The notes below the pieces were generated by a model. That model was not told where the DNA came from, did no database searches, and was given only the letters and a program-made list of their open reading frames with translations. A stretch of 54,590 nt of DNA from Gemmatimonadota bacterium. Its GTDB lineage: Bacteria > Gemmatimonadota > Gemmatimonadetes > Longimicrobiales > RSA9. Every line of letters starts with the position of its first letter. Positions within the stretch are counted from its first letter, which is position 1. This document shows, piece by piece, positions 1 to 13,147 of this stretch. The translations under genes and the position numbers were made by a program. The DNA is taken from the NCBI GenBank assembly GCA_007126035.1, contig SLCC01000089.1, forward strand, positions 1 to 54,590, read 5' to 3'.

Positions 1-53
1 CCCTCCCTTTCCCGACATTGGCAGCGCTCCCCTGAGCGGCCAGAAATTCGGGA

Positions 54-1294
54 ATGCCAAGCACGACCCTACGCCGGGAACTCCTGATCGCCTTCGCAAT
101 CGTGTTTGCGGGGGCTCTCGTCGTGGCCGTCACGGGCACGGTCCTGCTCATCCCCACGTTCGTCACGCCTGGCCGGGCCTTCCTGTTCCTGACGCTCCTG
201 GTGGTGGCGGACCTGGCGATCTTCTTCCTGTTCGGCCGCTGGCTCCTGCGCACGCGGGTCCTCTCTCCGCTGGACCGGATGGTGGACGAGGCGGAGGCGA
301 TTGCCGGTGGCGACTATGCGCGTCGGATCCCGGCGGTGGGCTACGAGGAGATGGACCGGCTGTCGGTGTCGCTGAACCGTATGGCGGAGCGGCTGATCAA
401 CCATCAGCTGGAGCTGGCTGAGAACGTCCAGAGCCTGGAGCGCACGAACCGTGAGCTGACGGACGCGCGGGACGAGCTGATCCGGGCGGAGAAGATGGCG
501 TCGCTGGGCCAGATGGCGGCGGGCGTGGCCCACGAGATCGGCAACCCGCTGGCGGCGGTCATGGGCAACGTGGACCTGCTCCGTCGCCAGGTGCAGGGCC
601 AGTACCTGGAGCTGGCGGAGGCGGCGCTGGAGCAGGTGCAGCGGATCGACCGGATCGTGAAGGGTCTCATGGACTACGCCCGTGGCCGGGAGGTCCGGCT
701 CCGCCCCCTCGGCGTGGACGAGGTCATCGTCACCAGCCTCCGCCTCATGGAGTCGCACCCCCGGTTCGACGGTGTGGCCGTGGAGACGGAGCTGGACGCG
801 GAGCTGCCCATGGTCAAGGCGGACCCGTACCAGCTGGAGCAGGTGCTGAACAACCTGCTGCTCAACGCCGCCGACGCCATGGTGGACGGCGACGAGCGGG
901 TGGTCCGCATCACCACCTCCCAGTTCACCTTCGAAGCGCCGGACATGGTGCCGGCCCGGCGCAGGGACGACCCGCCGGGGATCGACTATTCCCACCGTCG
1001 TCGCTTCAGCCAGCCCCAGCGCATACCACGGCTCCAGCCGTTCGAGGACGGCTCACGGGTGGTTGCGATCCGGGTCGAGGACACGGGGACGGGCATCCCG
1101 GCGGAGCACATCAACAGGATATTCGAGCCGTTCATGACCACGAAGGAGCCGGGCAAGGGCACCGGGCTGGGCCTGGCCATAGCCGCTCGGGTCATTGACG
1201 GCATGGACGGTACGATACGGGCCGACAACAGCGAGAGGGGAGCAGTCTTCACGATCCTGCTCCCCGCCTTTGAGGAACCAGCGGAGGCCGCCAC

Positions 1295-1298
<4 letters not shown>
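54..1298 (+). CDS. Sensor histidine kinase, PilS/NtrB-like
   Basis: Membrane histidine kinase that probably phosphorylates the sigma-54 response regulator encoded next to it. Two hydrophobic helices (about 10-33 and 42-64) are separated by a very short loop, so there is no real periplasmic sensor. A HAMP-like segment (65-115) and a coiled coil (to about 147) follow. The H-box MAAGVAHEIGNP places the phosphoacceptor at His160. The N-box lies at 261-275, DTGTGIP (G1) at 343-349 and GKGTGLGL (G2) at 368-375. About 40 extra residues, rich in Arg and Pro, lie between the N-box and G1. The stop overlaps the regulator start by 4 nt (GTGA), suggesting translational coupling. The pilus context makes a PilS-like role likely, but the signal is unknown. 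Confidence 0.9.
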
Positions 1299-2656
<1,358 letters not shown>

Positions 2657-2739
2657 GAGGCCGGGCCCCGAGCCGGCTCGTCCTCGCCTCGTCCCATCCA
2701 GCCATTCTCCTGCCCCGGGTGATCACCGATCATCCGCCC

Positions 2740-3171
2740 ATGAGACACGGCTACACGCTCTTCGAGCTGCTCACGGTGCTCCTGGTCATGGCTGTCCTGC
2801 TGGCCATCGCCGTCCCGCCAGCGGCGCACTGGCGAGACGCCGCCGCCGTGCGGGGCGCACGGGACGAGCTGGCCGGCCGGCTGGCCTGGACCAGGATCGC
2901 CGCCACCTCCCACGGCGGCGCGGCGCTGGTCCTGGACATCCCAGCCGCCGCCTACCGGATCGAGCTGGGCGACGGCGTCACCGCCCACCGGGGTGACCTT
3001 GGCCGCGGGTACGGCGTGGTCATCGAGACCAGCGCCAGTCGGGACTCGCTGGTCCTCAGGTACGACGCCCTGGGCGTGGGCCGCACCACGGGCGGCACGC
3101 TGCAGGTGAGGCGTGGCAGGGCCGCCGCCGGCCTCACCGTCAGCCCGTACGGCCGGTACCGGCGATGGTGA
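2740..3171 (+). CDS. GspH/FimT-like minor pseudopilin (cassette 1)
   Basis: Minor pilin of 143 residues. The prepilin leader is very short: MRHG, then YTLFELL, with cleavage expected after Gly4 and Glu at mature position 5. A hydrophobic helix follows (to about residue 27). The rest is a small GspH-like beta domain with no clear motifs. A GTG at 2719 is in frame upstream, but ATG 2740 gives the normal short leader, so I chose it. It is the first of four pseudopilin genes that overlap or abut, likely assembling the tip or priming complex of the type IV pilus. The assignment rests on the N-terminus and the context. Confidence 0.82.
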   Translation: MRHGYTLFELLTVLLVMAVLLAIAVPPAAHWRDAAAVRGARDELAGRLAWTRIAATSHGGAALVLDIPAAAYRIELGDGVTAHRGDLGRGYGVVIETSASRDSLVLRYDALGVGRTTGGTLQVRRGRAAAGLTVSPYGRYRRW

Positions 3172-3611
3172 CCTCCCCCGTCGTACGGCCGGGCCACTCC
3201 CTGGCCGAGCTCATCGTCGCCCTTGCCCTCCTGGGGACCATGCTCGCGGCGCTGACCGCGTCGGCGCTCCTGGCCACGGGCTGGACCACGAGCTCGGTGC
3301 TGAGGCAGCAGGCCTCGTCGATGGCCAGCACGGTGCTGGACTCCCTGGTCGCCCTGCCCGTGGAGCCCGTGGCGGGCGGCCTCCAGGCCGGGCAGCCGGC
3401 CTGGCTGATCGAGTGGGACGTGGTCCCCGACCCTGTCGTCGCCGGCGACCCGGCCCCGGGCCAGGCCGCGGGGTACAGCCGGGCAGTGGGCCTGCGGGTG
3501 ACCTCCAGGCCGCTCGGCTTCGACGTTGCCCTGGCCGAGCTGGAGGGGCTCTGGATCGCGCCGCTGCTGCCCGTCCGGTACCTGGGCGACCCGACGGGTG
3601 AGGGCCCATGA
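3165..3611 (+). CDS. PilV-like minor pseudopilin (cassette 1)
   Basis: Minor pilin of 148 residues. The type III leader motif is RPG followed by HSLAELIVALALLG, with Glu at mature position 5 and a hydrophobic helix to about residue 37. The C-terminal part is short and variable, as is usual for PilV/GspI-type proteins. The start overlaps the preceding pseudopilin by 7 nt and the end overlaps the next by 4 nt, so the four genes are probably translated as a unit. Which minor pilin class it belongs to is inferred from gene order and N-terminal type, since the body has no diagnostic motif. Confidence 0.78.
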   Translation: MVTSPVVRPGHSLAELIVALALLGTMLAALTASALLATGWTTSSVLRQQASSMASTVLDSLVALPVEPVAGGLQAGQPAWLIEWDVVPDPVVAGDPAPGQAAGYSRAVGLRVTSRPLGFDVALAELEGLWIAPLLPVRYLGDPTGEGP

Positions 3612-4327
3612 GGAACCGGAGCGGCGCCACGTCGCTGGCGGAGCTGGTCATGGTGGCGGCGTTCTTCGGGCTCGTGCTGGCCGGCATCGCCACCTTCGCC
3701 GGGCAGCAGGCGCGCCTGGCCGCGCTCCAGCAGGACAGGGTCCGGTTCGAGGACGCCGTCAGGACCGGCGAGCTGATCCTGGGCGGCGAGCTCCGGCACC
3801 TCACCGGCGACGACCTCACCGTCGGGGACGATTCCGTCCGCATCCGGGCGTTCCGCGGCGGCGGGCCCATTTGCTCCGCCAGCGGCGGGACTCTGCTCGT
3901 GGAGTACGCGGGCACGCGCATGCCCGAGCCGGACAAGGACTCGGTCCTGGTGGTAGGGCTCTACGGGGAACAGGTGGTGGCTTTCTCCTCCGCGATCCGG
4001 TCGGACCTCTGCGGTGGCTCGGTCGACCTGGCCCTGGTCGATCCGGCCGACCTGTCCGTCTCCATCGGCTCCTGGCCGGCGGTGGCGCTGGTCTTCGAGA
4101 CGGGCAGCTATCACCTGGCCGATGGGGCGGTCCGATACCGGCGGGGGCAGGGCGGCCGGCAGCCCCTGACAGAGGTGCTCCTGGGGGACATGGGCTTCCA
4201 CGGGGAGTCGGGCGCGGTGCGCGCGCGCATGGCACCTCATCCCGACTCGCTACCACGCCTGCCGCCAGGGTCGAGGTCGGCGAGGTCCTTCGTCTTCCGG
4301 AGCCTCAACAGCCCGGAGCACCGATGA
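3608..4327 (+). CDS. PilW-like minor pseudopilin (cassette 1)
   Basis: Minor pilin of 239 residues. The N-terminus MRNRSG then ATSLAELVMVAAFFG fits a class III leader with Glu at mature position 5. A long body of beta-type sequence follows; two cysteines (in PICSAS and DLCGGS) could pair. The size and the third position in the cassette match PilW/GspJ. The ATG overlaps the previous stop (ATGA) and the gene itself overlaps the next by 4 nt. It is likely a structural part of the pilus initiation complex. Sequence support beyond the leader is weak. Confidence 0.77.
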   Translation: MRNRSGATSLAELVMVAAFFGLVLAGIATFAGQQARLAALQQDRVRFEDAVRTGELILGGELRHLTGDDLTVGDDSVRIRAFRGGGPICSASGGTLLVEYAGTRMPEPDKDSVLVVGLYGEQVVAFSSAIRSDLCGGSVDLALVDPADLSVSIGSWPAVALVFETGSYHLADGAVRYRRGQGGRQPLTEVLLGDMGFHGESGAVRARMAPHPDSLPRLPPGSRSARSFVFRSLNSPEHR

Positions 4328-5349
4328 CCAACCGGCCAGGCTTCGCGCTCCTCGTATCGCTCCTGCTCACCCTGGCCCTGGCCGTGCTGGGCGCTGCCAT
4401 GCTGGTCCTGGCCGAGCGCGAGAACGAGTTGGCCACCGCCTGGACGATACGGACCAGGGCCCGGGCTGCCGCCGAGACCGGCGCCCGCGCGGCCCTCGCC
4501 GCCTGGTCGACCCGCCGCTACTCGCACCTCGCGCCGGGAGAGACGCTCCGGCTGGAAGGGTATCCGGATGACCGGGTCTCCGTCGCGATCCGCCGCCTCG
4601 ACAGCTCCATGTTCCTGCTGGCCGTCACCGCCAGCCAGCCGCTGGGCACGAGGACGGCTGCTGCCCGGGCGGCCGTCGTGGTGGCCACACTGGACGCCTC
4701 GCGGCACGTCGACGCCTTCCCCGCCGCTGCCATGGCCGGGTCCGAGGCCGTGGTCCTCCGAGGTGAGGTGGTGGCGGCGGCCGGGAGCGGTGATGCCGCC
4801 GCTCTCATGTCGCCCTCCGTCAGCATCGCCCCGGACGCTACCGTCGTCGGGTCGCCAGCAGTCATCAGCGCCGAGCCGCCGGCACTGTCGACGGTCCCGT
4901 TCCTGACGCCGGCCGTTTTGGATTCGCTGGCCACGACCACCGTGGCCGATGACCTGGTCTCGCCCCGCCCCGTCTCCGGCGGGGGCGGCTGTGTCCCGGA
5001 CCCCGTGAACTGGGGCGCGGTGTCCCCGTCCGACCCCTGTTACGACCTCACGCCCCTGGTCCGGAGCGAATCCCACCTGGTGGTCAGGGGCGGGGAAGGC
5101 CGGGGATTGCTGGTCGTGGAGGGTGACCTGGAGGTGGAGGACTTCCTGTTCCAGGGTATCATCCTCGTGCGCGGCAGCCTCACGATCGGACCGGGTGCGG
5201 CCGTGCAAGGCGCGGTGAGAGCGGAGACGCTGGAGATCGACGGCGGCTCCGTCAGGTTCGATTCCCACGCCATCGCGCATGCCCTCAACGCCGGCCCCCT
5301 CGACGCACCGTTCCGCCCCGGCCGGCGGTCGTGGATCCCGGCCTTCTGA
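4324..5349 (+). CDS. PilX/GspK-like minor pilin with conserved C-terminal domain (cassette 1)
   Basis: Protein of 341 residues starting at ATG 4324; the open frame extends upstream but only within the previous gene. The N-terminus (RPGFALLVSLLLTLALAVLG) is pilin-like but lacks the usual Glu5, as in PilX and GspK proteins. The C-terminal third has a Cys...NWG...PC segment followed by a repetitive beta region (GRGLLVVEGDLEV and IILVRGSLTI) resembling a short beta-helix. The same C-terminal arrangement recurs in the last gene of the second cassette (7316-8476). It closes cassette 1; a 194-nt gap follows. Confidence 0.75.
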   Translation: MTNRPGFALLVSLLLTLALAVLGAAMLVLAERENELATAWTIRTRARAAAETGARAALAAWSTRRYSHLAPGETLRLEGYPDDRVSVAIRRLDSSMFLLAVTASQPLGTRTAAARAAVVVATLDASRHVDAFPAAAMAGSEAVVLRGEVVAAAGSGDAAALMSPSVSIAPDATVVGSPAVISAEPPALSTVPFLTPAVLDSLATTTVADDLVSPRPVSGGGGCVPDPVNWGAVSPSDPCYDLTPLVRSESHLVVRGGEGRGLLVVEGDLEVEDFLFQGIILVRGSLTIGPGAAVQGAVRAETLEIDGGSVRFDSHAIAHALNAGPLDAPFRPGRRSWIPAF

Positions 5350-5477
5350 GCATGCCTCCACCAACTCGCAATACCGGTCTTCCAGCCTCCGAAAAGAATG
5401 TCCACTCCGGGAAAAACCTTTTCGCCAGGACGCGTCTTGAAGCACGCAAACGGTTGTGGGTAAACGATTTCAGGTCA

Positions 5478-5491
5478 GGCACGGAACTAGT
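5478..5491 (+). promoter_or_regulatory. Possible sigma-54-type promoter upstream of cassette 2
   Basis: The sequence GGCACGGAACTAGT fits the -24 element (GGCACG) with 10 nt between GG and GT, where the consensus -12 dinucleotide is GC. It therefore has one mismatch in the most conserved positions. It lies about 50 nt before the chosen start of the second pseudopilin cassette, in the only sizeable gap within the pilin genes, and a sigma-54 regulator is encoded 3 kb upstream. This is a suggestion only; such short motifs occur by chance in GC-rich DNA. Confidence 0.3.
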
Positions 5492-5543
5492 ATGTGGGGC
5501 CTGCGTCGCTAATGCTCCTGCTACTGGTCTGTCGGAGGCTGAC

Positions 5544-6050
5544 GTGGACGAAAGTCTACCTGTCGAACAAGTGCGTGGGTGGAGGGCACGGCCCGGGTTC
5601 ACCGTCGTCGAGCTGGTGATCGTGCTCATGGTCGCCGGGATCCTGGGCACCGTGACGGTGGCCCAGATATCGACCTACACGAGCCGGCGTGCCGCGACCG
5701 ACGCGCGGGACGCGTTCATCGCCGCGGCGGCCCAGGCCCGCGCGGCGGCGATCCGGATGGGCGAGGACGTGGAGATGCGGGTGGACCCCGTCAACGACCG
5801 CGTTCTGGTACTGCGTCGCCGGGACGGGTCCACGGTGATCGAGCCCCTGGACCTCAATGCCGGACCGCTCAGGGGCACGATCCTCGGGAGGGAGATCATC
5901 AGGGCCTGTTACACTTCGCGAGGTTTCATGCTGCCTTCGTGCGGCGGTACCGGCAACGCGACAGTGGGCCAGGCGGTGGATTTCCGGAGCCCGCAGGGCT
6001 CTCACACCGCTACCGCCGTCTTCACCCTGGCCGGGGCACGGCGGCCATGA
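5544..6050 (+). CDS. GspH/FimT-like minor pseudopilin (cassette 2)
   Basis: Minor pilin of 168 residues. I chose GTG 5544 because GGAGG lies at 5534-5538 with good spacing; the open frame runs back to 5331 but there overlaps the previous gene. The leader is then about 17 residues, ending RARPG, followed by FTVVELVIVLMVAG with Glu at mature position 5. The body (TYTSRRAATDARDAFIAAA region) matches the GspH/FimT family better than the first-cassette copy, and it has two C-terminal cysteines. It begins a second set of pseudopilins in the same order as the first. Later GTG codons at 5571 and 5577 are possible alternative starts. Confidence 0.8.
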   Translation: MDESLPVEQVRGWRARPGFTVVELVIVLMVAGILGTVTVAQISTYTSRRAATDARDAFIAAAAQARAAAIRMGEDVEMRVDPVNDRVLVLRRRDGSTVIEPLDLNAGPLRGTILGREIIRACYTSRGFMLPSCGGTGNATVGQAVDFRSPQGSHTATAVFTLAGARRP

Positions 6051-6439
6051 CGAGCCAGAGGGCGGGGTTCAGTCTGATAGAGGTGATCGTCGCCATGCTG
6101 ATCCTCACCGTGGGCGTGCTCGCCATGGGCGGGGCCACAGGCTACATCCTGACGCAGGTCCGGTCCGCCCAGCTGCGCACGGACCGGATGACGGCGGTGA
6201 ACCAGGCCGCCGAGCAGCTCCGCGCGATTGCCTGGAATGATCTGGAATCGGCATGCGCCGGTGACGGCTTCGACGTGCCGCCATACGCCGTATCCTGTCA
6301 CGTATCCCAGCCTCAGGGTGTGCTCCACCTGAAGCGTATCGACCTGGTGAGCACCGGCCCGGGCTTCCGCGGTGGCAGGGTCGTTCAGAGCCTGACGGAC
6401 ACGATGGTGATCGGGATCGCCCGACCGGTGGACCAATGA
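6047..6439 (+). CDS. PilV-like minor pseudopilin (cassette 2)
   Basis: Minor pilin of 130 residues beginning at ATG 6047, which overlaps the previous stop as ATGA. The leader MTSQRAG is followed by FSLIEVIVAMLILTVGVLAMG, a textbook PilV/GspI N-terminus with Glu at mature position 5. Two cysteines (about residues 68 and 82) may form a disulphide. The end overlaps the next start by 4 nt. It probably belongs with the other three cassette proteins in a minor-pilin complex that primes pilus assembly. Confidence 0.83.
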   Translation: MTSQRAGFSLIEVIVAMLILTVGVLAMGGATGYILTQVRSAQLRTDRMTAVNQAAEQLRAIAWNDLESACAGDGFDVPPYAVSCHVSQPQGVLHLKRIDLVSTGPGFRGGRVVQSLTDTMVIGIARPVDQ

Positions 6440-7308
6440 ATACTCAGCGAGAAGGCTTCACCCTGGTCGAGCTCCTGGTGGTGGCCGTGCTGGCGGTCCT
6501 GCTCATGGGCGCGGCCTACCAGTCACTCATGGTCCAGGAACGGAGCTCCCGGGCGGCCGGTCAGATGGTCAGGGGGCAGGACGCCCTGCGCGTCGCCCTG
6601 GGCGTCCTCGAGGCGGAGCTGCGGGAGGTGGTCACCCACAACGATGCCACCGGCGGCACCGACCTGCTGGTGGCTACCAGGGACTCGGTGGTGATACGGG
6701 CACAGCGCAAGCTCGGTCTGGTCTGCCGGCGCCATCCCAGTGATCGGCAGCTCGAGATCATCTCCGAGGGCGAGAACGGGGCGTTCCAGGTCGACGACTA
6801 CGTCCTCGTGTTCGCCGACGGAGACCCCACCACCGCCGCGGATGACGCGTGGTTCGCTGCCAGAGTCCACGGCACCGCCTCACCGTCGGCGACCTGTGAC
6901 TTCTTGCCGGACGCACCCGCCGCGAACCAGAGACTCAACCTGCAGCGCCCGGATGGTACAAGCCTGGACGGTACGAGGTTGAACGACGTGCTCCTCGGTG
7001 CCCCTATCCGCGGACTCGAGCGCGTCACATACGGCCTGTACGAGGCCGACGACGGTGGCTGGCACATGGGCCGGCGCCGGCACGGGACGAACGAGCTGGA
7101 GCGCCTGGTGGACGGGTTGGCCGGACCAGGCTCCGGCCTGGTCTTCACCTACCTGGACGGCAACGGCAATGCCCTGGCCCAGCCGATATCACACGCGGCC
7201 ATGCAGGGCATTGTCTCGGTGCGTATCGAGGCGGCGACGGACCCGCACCCGGGTACTGGCGCGCCAGCGACGGAGCTGACCACACACATCCATCTCCGGA
7301 ACAACTGA
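6436..7308 (+). CDS. PilW-like minor pseudopilin (cassette 2)
   Basis: Minor pilin of 290 residues. The leader MNTQREG is followed by FTLVELLVVAVLAVLLMGAAYQ with Glu at mature position 5. The body is long, as in PilW/GspJ, and has a Cys pair (LVCRRHP and SATCDF) about 50 residues apart. It shares position, overlap style and general size class with the PilW-like gene at 3608-4327, but is 51 residues longer. The next gene starts 7 nt after its stop. Confidence 0.82.
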   Translation: MNTQREGFTLVELLVVAVLAVLLMGAAYQSLMVQERSSRAAGQMVRGQDALRVALGVLEAELREVVTHNDATGGTDLLVATRDSVVIRAQRKLGLVCRRHPSDRQLEIISEGENGAFQVDDYVLVFADGDPTTAADDAWFAARVHGTASPSATCDFLPDAPAANQRLNLQRPDGTSLDGTRLNDVLLGAPIRGLERVTYGLYEADDGGWHMGRRRHGTNELERLVDGLAGPGSGLVFTYLDGNGNALAQPISHAAMQGIVSVRIEAATDPHPGTGAPATELTTHIHLRNN

Positions 7309-7315
7309 GGCCGGC

Positions 7316-8476
7316 ATGATGACTCACGGATCGGACCAGGCCAGAGATGGCTTCGCGCTACCAGCCACGCTGCTGGCCATGATCGTCATCGGCGCCATCG
7401 TCACCGGTGGCTTCTTCCTGGCCTCACAGGAGCACAACATCAGCGTCAGCACGGACCAGGGCGCCCGCGCCCTCCACGTGGCGCAGTACGGTCTCGAGGA
7501 GGCACTGGGCACATGGACCGGCGCGGACCTGGCCCGTGGCCCCGTGGCGGGGTCGGTCTACAACGGTAGCCGCGAGCTCGGAACCTACACGCTCACGCCC
7601 GTCCGCCTGGGCGATCCGGCGACGGGCAGCCGCCTCCACGCCATCATCTCCGAGGCCGAGACGGGGCGCCACCAGTACCGGGGCGCGCGGCGAGTCGGCA
7701 CGTTCGTCCGCACTTCTGCCGCCAGCCTGCCGTACAAGAGCGCGCTGTCCCTGATCGGGCAGCTGGACCGGCAGGGCGGCGCGGTGATCAGCGGAGAGGA
7801 CCAGTGCGGGGCGGAATCAGCCGCCACTGGCGTGATGGCGATCGAGGAGGGGATGGTCACCGGGTTCTACAGGGGCCAGGAGCAGATGATCTTCGGCGAC
7901 CCGCCGGCCGACTATGATGACGAGATGACCCCGGAAACGCTGAGCGATTTCGGGGAAGTGACGCTCGCGGACCTGATGGCCATGGCTACCCGCTATTACC
8001 AGGGCAACCCGGCCAACCCGCAGCACATGGCGCCCGAGACCACCACGACCGATGCGGGGACCGTCTGTGACCGGAGCGTGGACCTGAACTGGGGCGACCC
8101 GGACGAGTTTCCCGGCCCCTGCGGCGACTTCTACCCGCTCATCCACATCGATAGCGACGCGTTGCTGGACGTGGGGCGGGGGCAGGGCATCCTGGTCGTG
8201 GACGGCAACCTGACCGTGCTCGGGAACTTCGAGTTCTCCGGCATCGTGATCGTGACGGGCAGCTTCGTGATGGAGGGCACCGGCAGCAAGATCAATGGCT
8301 CGGTGATCGTCCATGGTCAGGGCGAGATAGACACGGAGAACGACCAGTCCGGTAATGCCAGGATCCAGTACGACAGCTGCAAGGTGGCAGAGGCGTTGGC
8401 GAACAACCTGCGCGTCCGTCCGCTGGCCAGCCGCGCCTGGTTCACGGACATGCCGCCGCTGCAGGCGGGTATATGA
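7316..8476 (+). CDS. PilX-like minor pilin with conserved C-terminal domain (cassette 2)
   Basis: Protein of 386 residues. The N-terminus ARDGFALPATLLAMIVIGAIVTGG is a pilin-like helix without Glu5. The motif GARALHVAQYGLEEAL after the helix is typical of PilX-type proteins. The C-terminal part repeats the pattern of 4324-5349: Cys, NWG, PC and PLI, then GQGILVVDGNLTV and IVIVTGSFVM. Two adjacent ATG codons (7316, 7319) are possible starts. It ends the cassette; a 114-nt gap with a promoter precedes pilM. The C-terminal domain has a bactofilin or beta-helix look, but its function is unknown. Confidence 0.8.
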   Translation: MMTHGSDQARDGFALPATLLAMIVIGAIVTGGFFLASQEHNISVSTDQGARALHVAQYGLEEALGTWTGADLARGPVAGSVYNGSRELGTYTLTPVRLGDPATGSRLHAIISEAETGRHQYRGARRVGTFVRTSAASLPYKSALSLIGQLDRQGGAVISGEDQCGAESAATGVMAIEEGMVTGFYRGQEQMIFGDPPADYDDEMTPETLSDFGEVTLADLMAMATRYYQGNPANPQHMAPETTTTDAGTVCDRSVDLNWGDPDEFPGPCGDFYPLIHIDSDALLDVGRGQGILVVDGNLTVLGNFEFSGIVIVTGSFVMEGTGSKINGSVIVHGQGEIDTENDQSGNARIQYDSCKVAEALANNLRVRPLASRAWFTDMPPLQAGI

Positions 8477-8590: not shown

Positions 8591-9628
8591 ATGGGAATCT
8601 TCGGCCGAAGCAAGGTCACAGCTGGCCTGGACATCGGGAGCGGCTTCGTGAAGCTGGTGGTCGTGGACCACTCCCGGGGTGATCCCGAGATAGTCAAGAT
8701 CGCCACCGGTCCCCTGGTGCAAGACGCCATTGTCGAGGGCGAGATCATGGACCCGGTCCTGGTCGCGGAGACGGTCCGCACCGTCGTCGACAACGCGGAG
8801 CTCTCCCGAGCGGAAGTGGTGGCCGCGGTGGGCGGCCACGACGTCATCATCAAGAAGATCCAGATGGACCGCATGGGTCACGAGGAGGCGCGCGACCTCA
8901 TCAGGTGGGAAGCGCACCAGCACGTGCCCTTCGACATGGAGAGCGTGCAGCTCGACTTCCAGATCCTCGACCCCGATGGCTCTGGCCCACAGATGTCGGT
9001 CCTGCTGGTCGCCGCCAAGAGGGAGCTGATCGAGAACCGGCTCGCCCTCCTGGCCGACGCGGGTCTCCGCGCCGCAGTGGTCGATGTGAATGCGTTCGCC
9101 CTGCACAACGCCTTCGAGCACAGCTATCCGGACAGCATGGTAGGCGTGGTGGCGCTGGTGAATATCGGCCACGAAACCACCAACATGAGCATCATGGAAG
9201 ACGGCATCCCGGTGGTGGTCCGGGACATACCGTTCGGCTCCCGCAGGATCAGGGAGGCGCTCCAGCGGGAGCGTGGCCTGACCGCTGAACGGGCCGAGGC
9301 GGTGCTCCAGGGCGGGGAAGACGGCGTCGACCTGGAAGGCTTCGTCGCCGAGCGGGTCGACGAGCTGGCCGTGGGGATCGAGCGGGCCGTCGCCTTCATC
9401 ACCGCCCAGAGCGGAGGCGACGGCGTGGACCGGGTGTTCCTGTCCGGCGGCGGCTCGCAGGTCCCGGGCGTGGCCAGGGCCCTGGCGGATCGGCTGGGCG
9501 TGACCACGCACATCGCCAACCCGCTCGAGCGGGTGGCCGTCAGCGCGGACGTGAACCTCAAGGTGGCGGTGGACGAGGTGGCGCCCATGCTCATGCTCCC
9601 TGTCGGACTGGCCATGAGGAGAGCGTAG
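8591..9628 (+). CDS. pilM: Type IV pilus inner-membrane platform protein PilM
   Basis: Actin-like cytoplasmic ATPase-fold protein of 345 residues that binds the N-terminus of PilN and links the pilus motor to the alignment complex. The first phosphate loop AGLDIGSGFVKLVVVD lies at the N-terminus and the second GVVALVNIGHETTNMSIM in the middle. The C-terminal FLSGGGSQVPGVARALADRLG motif is typical of PilM/FtsA-like proteins. It heads the five-gene order pilMNOPQ, conserved in many diderm bacteria, with 3-nt spacing to pilN. The ribosome site before ATG 8591 is weak. Confidence 0.95.
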   Translation: MGIFGRSKVTAGLDIGSGFVKLVVVDHSRGDPEIVKIATGPLVQDAIVEGEIMDPVLVAETVRTVVDNAELSRAEVVAAVGGHDVIIKKIQMDRMGHEEARDLIRWEAHQHVPFDMESVQLDFQILDPDGSGPQMSVLLVAAKRELIENRLALLADAGLRAAVVDVNAFALHNAFEHSYPDSMVGVVALVNIGHETTNMSIMEDGIPVVVRDIPFGSRRIREALQRERGLTAERAEAVLQGGEDGVDLEGFVAERVDELAVGIERAVAFITAQSGGDGVDRVFLSGGGSQVPGVARALADRLGVTTHIANPLERVAVSADVNLKVAVDEVAPMLMLPVGLAMRRA

Positions 9629-9631
9629 ACC

Positions 9632-10297
9632 ATGATCGAGATCAACCTTCTCCCGGGATCAGATAAGCGGAAGAAGCAGCGGCCGAGCCTGGGCATCAAG
9701 CTGCCAGAGTCCATGCCGGCGGTGGACCGGCTGAACGCCTTCATCGGTGCCGCCTGGATCATCGCGCTGCTGGCGCTGGCCTGGATGTTCTTCGGCGTGC
9801 GGAGCGAGCGAGCCGATCTGGGCGTCGCCCTGGATCAGGCCGCCGCCGACTCCGCCCGCTACGCCCGTCTCATCAACGCCCAGGCGGCGCTCCAGGCCAG
9901 GCAGGACACGATCGCCCAGAAGCTGACGATCATCCAGGAGATAGATGCCAACCGCTACGTGTGGCCCCATATCCTGGACGAGATAAGTCGGGCGATGCCG
10001 CCCTATACCTGGTTGGAGACGGTGCGGCACCTGGATACCGGGTCGCTACCGGGGTTCACTGTCATGGGCAGGACCGGCAGCCTGGCTGCCCTCACCCGGT
10101 TCATGGACGCACTGGAAGCTTCGCCCTTCCTGCGCGGTATCGAGCTCGTGAGCAGCGAGCAGGCCGCGCTCCGCGGCGAGGAAGGCAGGATCGTGAACGA
10201 CTTCATCCTCACGGGACACTACCAGCATCCGCCAATCGAGATTATCGAGACCGTGCCGCTGTTCGTCGACGGCGTGCTCGATGGGGCGGAGAGGTGA
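9632..10297 (+). CDS. pilN: Type IV pilus assembly protein PilN
   Basis: Bitopic inner-membrane protein of 221 residues. The cytoplasmic N-terminus begins MIEINLLPG, the conserved PilM-binding motif. One membrane helix lies at about residues 32-52 (LNAFIGAAWIIALLALAWMF), followed by a coiled coil and a ferredoxin-like periplasmic domain that pairs with PilO. It is placed 3 nt from both pilM and pilO. The identification rests on motif, topology and order. Confidence 0.93.
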   Translation: MIEINLLPGSDKRKKQRPSLGIKLPESMPAVDRLNAFIGAAWIIALLALAWMFFGVRSERADLGVALDQAAADSARYARLINAQAALQARQDTIAQKLTIIQEIDANRYVWPHILDEISRAMPPYTWLETVRHLDTGSLPGFTVMGRTGSLAALTRFMDALEASPFLRGIELVSSEQAALRGEEGRIVNDFILTGHYQHPPIEIIETVPLFVDGVLDGAER

Positions 10298-10300
10298 ATC

Positions 10301-10909
10301 ATGGGACTACTGGGACTTCCTGACGATCCGGCCAAGCAGAAGCGCCTGCTCCTCGGAATCCTGCCATTCGTGCTGGTCGTCGGCTACTGGCACTTCCTTC
10401 ATGGCGACTACACGCACGAGGTGGAGCAGATGGAGACCCGGCTCGAGCGGCTCGAGCGGAGCAATACGCAGGCCCGGCTCCGCGAGTCAGAGGGCCGGGA
10501 GCTCGAGGAGCGGCTCGTCCAGTTCGAGCGTCACATCCTGCGCCTCGAGCAGCTCGTCCCCAGGAGCGAGGAGGTGTCTCAGCTCCTGAACCAGATCCAT
10601 CAGCGTGCGCAGCAGGTGGGCGTGGACGTGGCCCGGTTCACCCCGGGTCGGACCGACCCGGGCCCGCATTACAACCGCCGCGTGTTCGAGATGACGGTCA
10701 TGGGATCGTACCACGACATCGGCCGCTTCCTCACGGAAGTAGGCTCGCTGCCCCGGATCATCACGCCGACCGAGCTCCGGATGATCGTCAACAACAACCG
10801 ACCAGGCCCGGGCGATGGCCCCATGCTCGAGGCATCGTTCCGGATCGAGACGTACGTGCTGCCGGACCCGGCCGACCGGGTCCCCGACCAGGACAGGGTA
10901 GGTGCATGA
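10301..10909 (+). CDS. pilO: Type IV pilus assembly protein PilO
   Basis: Bitopic inner-membrane protein of 202 residues that forms heterodimers with PilN and contacts PilP. A single membrane helix lies at about 14-30 (RLLLGILPFVLVVGYWHF). A long heptad-like coiled coil rich in Glu and Arg follows (about 40-95), then a periplasmic ferredoxin-like domain (VFEMTVMGSYHDIGRFLTEV). The stop is 1 nt before the chosen pilP start. Confidence 0.93.
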   Translation: MGLLGLPDDPAKQKRLLLGILPFVLVVGYWHFLHGDYTHEVEQMETRLERLERSNTQARLRESEGRELEERLVQFERHILRLEQLVPRSEEVSQLLNQIHQRAQQVGVDVARFTPGRTDPGPHYNRRVFEMTVMGSYHDIGRFLTEVGSLPRIITPTELRMIVNNNRPGPGDGPMLEASFRIETYVLPDPADRVPDQDRVGA

Positions 10910-10910
10910 T

Positions 10911-11378
10911 ATGAGGCGCTATATACTTACGCTCGCTGCGTCGAGCCTGGCCCTGGCGCTGATGTGGAGTGGCGCGGCGGACGGGCAGGGCGCACAGCGA
11001 GCACAGAGAGCCCAGCAGGAAGGTCAACGGCCCTTGCCCGCCGCGAATGATGTGACCCTCGTCTACGAGCGAGAGGTCTTCATGTACCGTGGCGCCGGCA
11101 GACCGGACCCCTTCCGACCCCTGACCGAGGACGACGAGCTGGGCCCCCGGTTCGAGCGGCTGACCCTGCAGGGGGTGATCTACTCGAGCCCTCGGACCAG
11201 CGTGGCACTGCTGAGCGATGGCACGGGCCGGGTCTACAGGGTCAGGCAGGGCGACGTCCTGGGTAACGCGCGAGTCCTGGATATCGGGCCGCGCAGGGTG
11301 GTCATGGCCGTCGACGTGTTCGGCACGATCCGGCGGGAGACCTTGGAGCTGCAACGGAGTGGAGGGGACCGACGATGA
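10911..11378 (+). CDS. pilP: Type IV pilus assembly protein PilP
   Basis: Periplasmic protein of 155 residues that connects PilNO to the secretin. It has an N-terminal signal or anchor segment (YILTLAASSLALALMWSGA) but no lipobox cysteine, unlike the Pseudomonas and Neisseria PilP lipoproteins. The beta domain contains GRPDPFRPL and LTLQGVIYS, motifs typical of PilP. I chose ATG 10911 over an in-frame GTG at 10902 that overlaps pilO. The end overlaps pilQ by 4 nt. Confidence 0.88.
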   Translation: MRRYILTLAASSLALALMWSGAADGQGAQRAQRAQQEGQRPLPAANDVTLVYEREVFMYRGAGRPDPFRPLTEDDELGPRFERLTLQGVIYSSPRTSVALLSDGTGRVYRVRQGDVLGNARVLDIGPRRVVMAVDVFGTIRRETLELQRSGGDRR

Positions 11379-13147
11379 TCTCGATACTGGCGCTCCGCGC
11401 GCTACTATTCGCTGCCATGGCCACGGTGCAGAGCGTCTCTGTGGTCTCTTCCGGGGATCAGACCCAGGTCCTCATCGACCTGGAAGGGCAGGCTACCTAC
11501 CAGCACACCGTGCTGGAGGGCCCACCGCGCATCGTGATCGATGTGGCCAGCGCCGAGCTGCGCTTGCCACGGCCTCGATTCGAGGTGGACAGGGGCGGGG
11601 TCGCCAGGATCCGCTCCAGCCAGTTCCAGCCCGGGGTCGTACGCGTGGTCATCGACCTGGTCGAGGCCTCCGATTACCAGGTCGAGCGACGTGAAGAGAC
11701 GATCGTCGTCTCATCCCCCAATCCACGGGGCGAGTTCGAGTCCTGGAGCTCCGGCGGGGGCGGTGGGAACGTCTCTCTCGCGTCCTCCTCCCGGCCAGCT
11801 GCCCGGGATGCGGACCTCCTGGGCCACAGGGCAGCGCCTGCGACCAGCGGGACCGATCGGGCCACCACGCCTGTGCCCGTGACGCCGCCGCCAGTCGTGA
11901 CGGCGCCCGCGCCGGCCACCCCGCGGATCACCGTCGAGTTCCGCAACACGCCCATCGACGATGTCCTCGGCACGTTCGCCGACTTCTCGGCCCGCAGCAT
12001 CGTTCCGGGCTCCGGCGTCCGCACCCAGGCCATCACGGCCACGATCCAGAACCAGCCCTGGGACGAGGCCATGCGGGCTATCCTGGCCGGGCAGGGTCTC
12101 GTCGCCCGTGAGTTGCCCAGCGGGATCATCATGGTCACTTCCATGGAGGCCCAACGCCTGGTGGAGACTCAGGAGGAGACCATCACCCGGGCGTTCTCGC
12201 TCCAGTACGTATCCGCCGACTCGGTGGCGCCCCAGGTCAGGGAGCTTCTGGCGGAGACGGAAGGCAGGGCGGTGGGCACGGTGGCGGTGAACCGTGCCAC
12301 CAACACCCTGATCGTGTCCGCTCGCCAGTCGGTGGTGGACCGTCTCGACGGTCTGCTCCCAGCCCTGGACCGGCGCACCCCGCAGGTCACCGTCAAGGTC
12401 AGGATCATGTCGGTGAGCCGGACCCGCGCCCGCGACCTGGGCTTCCGGTACGAACTGATCGATGCCGACGCCCGTGGCGTGACCCGGATCGGCGACGAGC
12501 GCATGATACCGGTCGAGCCGCGGATCTCGGTTGGTGGCAATACCATCGCGGCTATCGGCAACGCAACCGTCCAGCTGCAGGAGCCCACCTTCACGGCGGT
12601 GGCCTCGCTGCTCCTCCAGCGCCACACACTGGTGGCGTGGCTCGAGGCGGCGCAGCGGCTCGAGCTCGCGGAGCTCCAGGCGGACCCGACTATCACCGTG
12701 CTCGATCACCGCACCGCCCGGATCCACGTGGGTGAGCGGACGCCCATACGGGTGGTCGACCCGGGCGCCGCGGGCGCGGAAGGGCCGCGGGCCCAGGTCC
12801 GGATCGAGGAGACGGGCGTGATCCTGGAGTTGACCCCCCACGTGGTGGGCGACCAGGTGCTCCTGAACCTCCACGCGGAACGGTCCTTCATCCAGCAGTT
12901 CACGCCGGACGGGCAGTTCGTCTTCGGCACCGCCGAGACGAACACCCAGATCCTGGTCGACGACGGGGCGACGGCCGTCATCAGCGGCCTGACCACCACG
13001 GACCTCAGGCGCACCAGGAGCGGCATACCGGTCCTCATGAACATCCCGTTCCTGGGCGCGCTGTTCCGGTTCGACTCGGTCCAGGACCAGAAGGAGGACC
13101 TGCTGATCATGGTCACGCCGCACATCGATCGGTCTCCGCTGCTGTGA
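11375..13147 (+). CDS. pilQ: Type IV pilus outer-membrane secretin PilQ
   Basis: Secretin of 590 residues forming the outer-membrane pore through which the pilus passes. A signal-like segment is followed by one AMIN domain (about 22-110, ending VERREETIVVSSP), a Pro/Thr linker, an N0/STN domain (ITVEFRNTPIDDVLGTFADF), an N1 domain (FSLQYVSADSVAPQVRELL) and the C-terminal secretin core (GIPVLMNIPFLGALFRF, then EDLLIMVTPHI). It is shorter than proteobacterial PilQ, which often has two AMIN domains. It is the last gene of the pilus operon; a strong terminator follows. Confidence 0.96.
   Translation: MISILALRALLFAAMATVQSVSVVSSGDQTQVLIDLEGQATYQHTVLEGPPRIVIDVASAELRLPRPRFEVDRGGVARIRSSQFQPGVVRVVIDLVEASDYQVERREETIVVSSPNPRGEFESWSSGGGGGNVSLASSSRPAARDADLLGHRAAPATSGTDRATTPVPVTPPPVVTAPAPATPRITVEFRNTPIDDVLGTFADFSARSIVPGSGVRTQAITATIQNQPWDEAMRAILAGQGLVARELPSGIIMVTSMEAQRLVETQEETITRAFSLQYVSADSVAPQVRELLAETEGRAVGTVAVNRATNTLIVSARQSVVDRLDGLLPALDRRTPQVTVKVRIMSVSRTRARDLGFRYELIDADARGVTRIGDERMIPVEPRISVGGNTIAAIGNATVQLQEPTFTAVASLLLQRHTLVAWLEAAQRLELAELQADPTITVLDHRTARIHVGERTPIRVVDPGAAGAEGPRAQVRIEETGVILELTPHVVGDQVLLNLHAERSFIQQFTPDGQFVFGTAETNTQILVDDGATAVISGLTTTDLRRTRSGIPVLMNIPFLGALFRFDSVQDQKEDLLIMVTPHIDRSPLL

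Follow-up and report, generated by a model that had tools for sequence, protein, structure and literature searches.

Two complete sets of minor-pilin genes lie one behind the other at a type IVa pilus locus of a Gemmatimonadota bacterium. The stretch of DNA analyzed here (GenBank assembly GCA_007126035.1, contig SLCC01000089.1, 54,590 nucleotides; hereafter the window) constitutes contig C134 in a genome of 3.88 Mb that is 98% complete. Eight intact open reading frames (ORFs) between positions 2740 and 8476 repeat the order fimT-pilV-pilW-pilX, flanked by pilS-pilR and pilMNOPQ. A preliminary description of the sequence had listed these genes, and the order, span and protein sizes given there (239 versus 290 residues for the two PilW proteins) are correct. 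We argue below that the two sets probably provide alternative tip complexes for one pilus machine.

Set 1 covers positions 2740–5349. Its first gene, fimT1 (2740–3171, on the plus strand like every gene of this locus given below), codes for a GspH/FimT-type minor prepilin with an N_methyl match. It is followed by pilV1 (3165–3611), an I-type minor prepilin gene with a recognizable prepilin motif, by pilW1 (3608–4327), which encodes a J-type protein of 239 residues, and by pilX1 (4324–5349), which encodes a K-type capping prepilin of 341 residues. Set 2 (about 5544–8476) starts with fimT2 (about 5544–6050), which has a GTG start codon preceded by GGAGG at 5534–5538 and matches the GspH model below the cut-off. 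The next two genes, pilV2 (6047–6439) and pilW2 (6436–7308, 290 residues), both score above the N_methyl cut-off; PilV2 also matches the PilV model (E-value 3e-9), though with a score under the cut-off of that model. The last gene, pilX2 (7316–8476), codes for a capping prepilin of 386 residues. Four prepilin-like proteins in the order H-I-J-K, the last of them without Glu5, place both sets in the FimU/T-PilV-PilW-PilX type. The two sets had been described as sharing the same stop-start overlaps. This holds for the V-W junction, which is ATGA in both, and fails for the others: the fimT-pilV overlap is 7 nt long in set 1 but 4 nt in set 2, and pilW and pilX, which share 4 nt in set 1, lie 7 nt apart in set 2. 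Overlaps of this kind are common and on their own are weak evidence of kinship.

Paralogy of the Two Sets

Judged by comparison of profiles built from the relatives of each protein, each protein of set 1 is a paralogue of its counterpart at the corresponding position in set 2, whereas non-cognate pairs show no such relationship. The strongest match is between PilX1 and PilX2 (hhalign E-value 3.6e-47 over 346 columns), which are also recognizably related as single sequences (shuffle z = 25). PilW1 and PilW2 follow with a profile E-value of 2.3e-18, and their soluble parts alone give z = 4.9 as single sequences. With the first 30 residues removed, FimT1 matches FimT2 over 107 columns with an E-value of 4.4e-15. 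The match between PilV1 and PilV2 has an E-value of 7.5e-6 and a probability of 84%, while non-cognate control pairs reach at most 2% once the common N-terminal helix is removed. Profile comparison was needed because single-sequence alignment of the FimT and PilV pairs gave no signal beyond this helix. An iterated hidden Markov model of FimT2 also caught major pilins, so the FimT sets used here were redefined by their position beside PilW.

The paralogue pairs might instead have been closer to unrelated families than to each other. No Pfam family covers the soluble domain of either PilW, so no other described family stands closer to the cognate pairs; among those found, each protein is nearest to its cognate. 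Profiles of PilW2 and PilX2 revealed no credible relative among the sequences of solved structures. Both sets are about 35–40% identical between genomes with 68% identical PilM, neither set diverging consistently faster than the other, and each contains set-specific conserved residues.

Age and Distribution

In a PilW tree of 100 rows, the 28 set-1 proteins, including PilW1 of the window, group in a single clade supported at 100/100, and PilW2 of the window falls in a set-2 clade of 19 rows. PilX proteins grouped by their neighboring PilW show the same split with one exception, and FimT1 forms a single clade with a Shimodaira–Hasegawa-like approximate likelihood ratio (SH-aLRT) of 99. Since these groupings agree, the cassettes travel as units. 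The separate set-1 and set-2 clades extend over many genera, which points to an old duplication. We are thus highly confident that an entire cassette was duplicated long ago, as the preliminary description had suggested; this reading is supported by the homology within every cognate pair, by the agreement between the PilW and PilX trees and by the occurrence in two families.

The distribution of the sets was surveyed in 200 Gemmatimonadota genomes of at least 90% completeness, with presence of set 1 defined as a strong PilW1 match (E-value below 1e-30) and tallied by hand from the resulting table. Set 1 occurs in 42 of the 200, all from families f1 and f2 of the order to which the window belongs. 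Fifteen of these 42 also contain set 2 (14 with a strong match and one, G005, with a diverged subtype), in 12 of them in tandem. PilW2-type proteins are widespread across the class. The claim that a pilus locus usually has one such set is therefore valid for this phylum sample, where both types meet in 15 of 200 genomes; as a general statement it fails, as several sets per genome are known elsewhere.

The layout pilS-pilR-set 1-set 2-pilM is repeated among the tandem loci. The nearest relative of the window by PilM (G009, locus L116, 80% identity) is a set-1-only locus, and family f3 is among those with set 2 only. A duplication within the order fits this distribution. In three loci (L117, L123 and L124) the place of set 2 is filled by a separate subtype that clusters in the tree with copies located far upstream in L084 and L096, which suggests replacement in place. 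Three f2 loci (L126, L133 and L134) deviate in that pilX1 abuts pilM and pilSR is absent upstream.

Some loci show further variation. Two set-2-type cassettes are found in tandem in L064 and L113, and pilX is doubled at the pilus locus of L079, L082 and L092. In L039 the two sets are separated by a gene on the minus strand (3545–6637) for a 1030-residue spermidine-synthase-like membrane protein. Judged by its protein family, which was assigned by eye, this insert of about 3 kb is not a pilus gene. The gaps between the sets of L047 and L048 are of similar size. A record titled Phycisphaerae (Planctomycetota), L056, contains a pilM locus of the Gemmatimonadota type and is probably a mis-binned or misnamed contig.

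One Pilus Machine

The sets are followed by genes for the type IVa pilus machine: pilM (8591–9628; Pfam PilM_2, E-value 2e-65), pilN (9632–10297) and pilO (10301–10909), both identified by Pfam, a gene in the position of pilP (10902–11378) that has no Pfam match, and the secretin gene pilQ (11375–13147, by Pfam); topA lies beyond them. Upstream are genes for a PilS-like sensor kinase (54–1298) with HAMP, HisKA and HATPase domains by Pfam and for a PilR-like, NtrC-family activator of sigma-54 (1295–2656; Pfam Sigma54_activat, E-value 1e-72). Genes for PilC and a PilT-like protein are found at the end of contig C139 (positions 1–4800), with a ComEA-like double-HHH protein encoded about 3 kb from pilC.

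PilQ is the only secretin and PilC the only GspF/PilC platform protein found in the genome. In all likelihood, a single machine serves both sets. The five N-methyl matches in the genome all fall within this locus. The gene for the major pilin, pilA, is probably missing from the assembly: pilC reads off the extreme end of contig C139, contig C134 starts at pilS, and relatives such as L116 have two canonical pilin genes immediately before pilS, so pilA would fall in the gap between the two contigs.

Capping Subunits with a Predicted Beta-Helix

The PilX proteins of both sets lack Glu5 (PilX1 reads GFALLV and PilX2 GFALPA), as expected of a capping subunit (PMC10191384). Structure models of PilX2 and PilX1 have predicted local distance difference test (pLDDT) scores of 85.7 and 80.5, respectively, and both show a long alpha-1 helix and a C-terminal domain with the strand pattern of a beta-helix. 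The best Foldseek matches of PilX2 in the PDB are ice-binding beta-helix proteins, the best with an E-value of 0.013 and none below 0.001; PilX1 matches bactofilin and ice-binding families weakly. In our reading, the beta-helix would be an exposed tip domain in both sets. A search for PilY1 (PF05567) in 41 relatives and the 200 phylum genomes returned zero matches, although no positive control gave a signal either.

A Sigma-54-like Motif between the Sets

The gap between pilX1 and fimT2 contains the sequence AGGCACGGAACTAGT (5477–5491, plus strand), which resembles a sigma-54 -24/-12 element. The place of this motif, TGGCAYGGAWCT(T/G/C)G(G/C), is conserved in relatives: it recurs between pilX1 and fimT2 in tandem loci, upstream of pilA genes, and between pilX1 and pilM in set-1-only loci. 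In 680 kb the motif gave 67 matches on the plus strand and 17 on the minus strand. We trained a matrix on fifteen sites, the window site not among them. All nine untrained tandem loci contain the motif with p ≤ 0.033, including the window (p = 0.007), and so does the set-1-only locus L116 (p = 0.007); before fimT1, a motif with p below 0.05 was found in just 2 of 12 loci. Besides the window, sites in the pilX-fimT gap were located in L039, L047, L052, L074, L081 and L101, and sites before pilM in L046, L072, L080 and L125. The GG-N10-GC core is complete in L049, L052 and L060, and the -12 part is GG or GT in others, the window among them.

The genome encodes RpoN, and PilR contains the GAFTGA loop. 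A scan for sigma-70 promoters and terminators found nothing beyond chance. We take the motif for a putative promoter, which would make set 2 the first part of the pilMNOPQ operon and leave set 1 behind pilSR. Set-1-only loci with the motif beside pilM look like losses of set 2.

FimT Tails and Possible DNA Capture

The C-terminal GRxR motif has been identified as a feature of DNA-binding FimT proteins: its arginines bind DNA in Legionella FimT (PMC8897410) and in Xylella FimT3 (PMC9956873), and in FimU the motif is either ill-defined or incomplete (PMC8897410, PMC9956873). FimT1 of the window ends in SPYGRYRRW and so contains this motif, and FimT2 does not. Set-1 FimT proteins typically end in (S)YGRVRR(W) or similar, with GRxR in 19 of the 24 proteins defined by position, or in 23 of about 28 with further loci added; the remainder are GRVSRR-like. 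By comparison, a single set-2 FimT out of 44 has the motif. Among the 260 prepilin-like ORFs of all loci, GRxR outside set-1 FimT is confined to three FimT proteins from f3. The tail of FimT2 has a median charge of 0 where set 1 lies in tandem and +2 where set 2 is alone (p = 4e-5, relatedness ignored). Net charge of the whole soluble domains, taken as a sign of DNA binding, revealed no useful difference between the sets.

The genome encodes ComEC and the ComEA-like HHH protein. ComEC was considered as a marker for one of the sets and rejected, as it is present nearly everywhere. On the strength of the tail motif, set 1 may lean toward DNA capture, a reading that we offer tentatively.

In five f3 loci (L127–L131), a lone FimT-like pilin gene lies about 3.2–3.8 kb before pilM and just before the single set, in the place that set 1 occupies in the family of the window. 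The tails of these proteins mostly contain GRxxR.

Proposed Model and Alternatives

We propose that each set would form its own priming and tip complex, assembled from the cap downward: PilX, without Glu5, would cap PilW and PilV, and FimT would connect the complex to the PilA fiber. Both complexes would compete for the one machine, which could thus produce pili with different tips. Set 2 would be transcribed together with pilMNOPQ from the sigma-54-like promoter, probably driven by the neighboring PilSR, while set 1, upstream of that promoter, would probably be read from pilSR. With the GRxR tail of its FimT, set 1 would be the better candidate for DNA capture, and set 2 would serve general assembly and adhesion. 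That the sets are alternative tip or priming complexes is likely in our view; the model as a whole, with competition, separate control and DNA capture by set 1, is plausible on balance. The preliminary description had raised the possibility of two alternative tips, for instance with adhesion assigned to one and DNA uptake to the other. This division of labor is still something we infer, with added weight from the near confinement of GRxR to set-1 FimT and from the motif that separates the sets.

Several points weigh against this model. ComEC occurs in almost every relative irrespective of the set present, so that DNA uptake does not track set 1, and some single-set f3 genomes carry GRxR or GRxxR in their sole set. 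The comparison of FimT2 tails is phylogenetically non-independent. The PilX1 model is uncertain at residues 142–190, the Foldseek matches of PilX1 are weak and those to ComZ very weak. The homology of PilV1 and PilV2 is only moderate. Finally, the window motif is poor at -12 (AGT), which is the reason why promoter activity is put forward here conditionally.

The two sets could instead be equivalent duplicates, kept for different conditions through dosage or regulation and directed at the same binding targets. They share gene order and the beta-helical type of PilX, a promoter-like element lies between them, and in Myxococcus xanthus minor-pilin cluster 1 or 3 alone suffices for piliation (PMC7541494). 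We consider equivalence unlikely in view of the old divergence, the set-specific conserved residues and the GRxR motif being nearly confined to one of the two FimT groups. A second alternative concerns origin and is compatible with the functional model: set 1 may have come by horizontal transfer from a lineage that was not sampled. Among the 200 genomes it occurs in f1 and f2 only, and the free PilW tree does not place it beside set 2 of the same genomes. On the other hand, it lies directly beside a homologous set with identical gene order, and the approximately unbiased test does not reject a tree constrained to join set 1 with set 2 of its own order (p = 0.218); we give horizontal acquisition a low probability.

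All eight proteins could also join in one enlarged tip complex, in which set 1 extends or decorates a set-2 core. This arrangement would agree with the adjacency and collinearity of the sets and with the retention of both in 15 of the 42 set-1 genomes. It is quite improbable given that many relatives have set 1 alone (such as G009) or set 2 alone at this place, with an intact pilM neighborhood, so that neither set seems to need the other; separate transcription is also suggested by the conserved motif that lies between them. Least likely by far is the assignment of set 2 (or set 1) to a type II secretion GspHIJK set or another filament system: there are weak matches of FimT2 to the GspH model (33.6 bits against a cut-off of 80) and of PilW2 to the GspJ model (23.8 bits against 64.85), but no Gsp equivalog match reaches its cut-off, and most are N-terminal. 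Both sets lie in one locus with pilMNOPQ and pilSR, and the genome shows no second secretin (GspD) or GspF/PilC protein and hence no type II secretion system to which set 2 could belong.

Relation to Known Systems

That several minor-pilin sets can serve one machine is already known from Myxococcus (PMC7541494) and Xylella (PMC9956873). The minor-pilin/PilY1 clusters 1–3 of M. xanthus are likewise several complete FimU-PilV-PilW-PilX sets for one type IVa pilus machine; one major pilin serves all clusters, and differential regulation has been proposed to exchange tips (PMC7541494, PMC9109919). These sets form separate clusters, each with pilY1, whereas the sets described here lie in tandem beside pilMNOPQ, have a PilX beta-helix and show no pilY1 in the search mentioned above, which lacked a positive control. 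Xylella fastidiosa similarly contains paralogous pilE/V/W/X-fimT-pilY1 operons, with a GRxR-bearing FimT paralogue as the DNA receptor (PMC9956873). Its two minor-pilin operons have mostly opposed effects on twitching and transformation (PMC9956873). They lie in different genome regions and include pilY1, in contrast to the GRxR-bearing FimT of the window, which heads one of two tandem sets.

In Legionella, as here, one family contains a DNA-binding member with GRxR (FimT) and an assembly member (FimU) (PMC8897410). The Legionella FimT gene is an orphan, whereas the gene for the GRxR-bearing FimT in the window heads an entire second set. The tip pilin ComZ of Thermus thermophilus also has a beta-solenoid that resembles ice-binding proteins (PMC6561018). 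ComZ binds DNA, and its solenoid comprises about 380 residues and is inserted in the pilin fold, in contrast to the short C-terminal beta-helices of PilX, and no sequence match between PilX and ComZ was found. The new features of the present case are its tandem arrangement, a conserved element that separates the two sets, the partition of GRxR and the beta-helical PilX. The portions of the literature found that name Gemmatimonadota together with type IV pili and minor pilins do not describe the present sets.

Conclusions

The most specific form of our proposal is an exchange of tips: set 2, driven by PilSR and RpoN, would be made together with the machine, and set 1, linked to PilSR, would carry a GRxR DNA receptor. 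Adhesion and DNA capture would then be split between two tips, each capped by a beta-helix and independent of PilY1, and in genomes with set 1 the ability to bind DNA would have been lost from FimT2. In this full form the proposal is possible, though doubtful. The predicted PilX beta-helices suggest that minor pilins themselves can provide the tip domain in a phylum sample in which no pilY1 was seen, with the caveat that the search had no positive control. The two cassettes are adjacent, diverged enough to be distinguished, single in relatives and marked in one case by a DNA-binding motif, and for these reasons they afford direct predictions. The finding touches on the question of how one pilus machine switches between motility or adhesion and DNA uptake.

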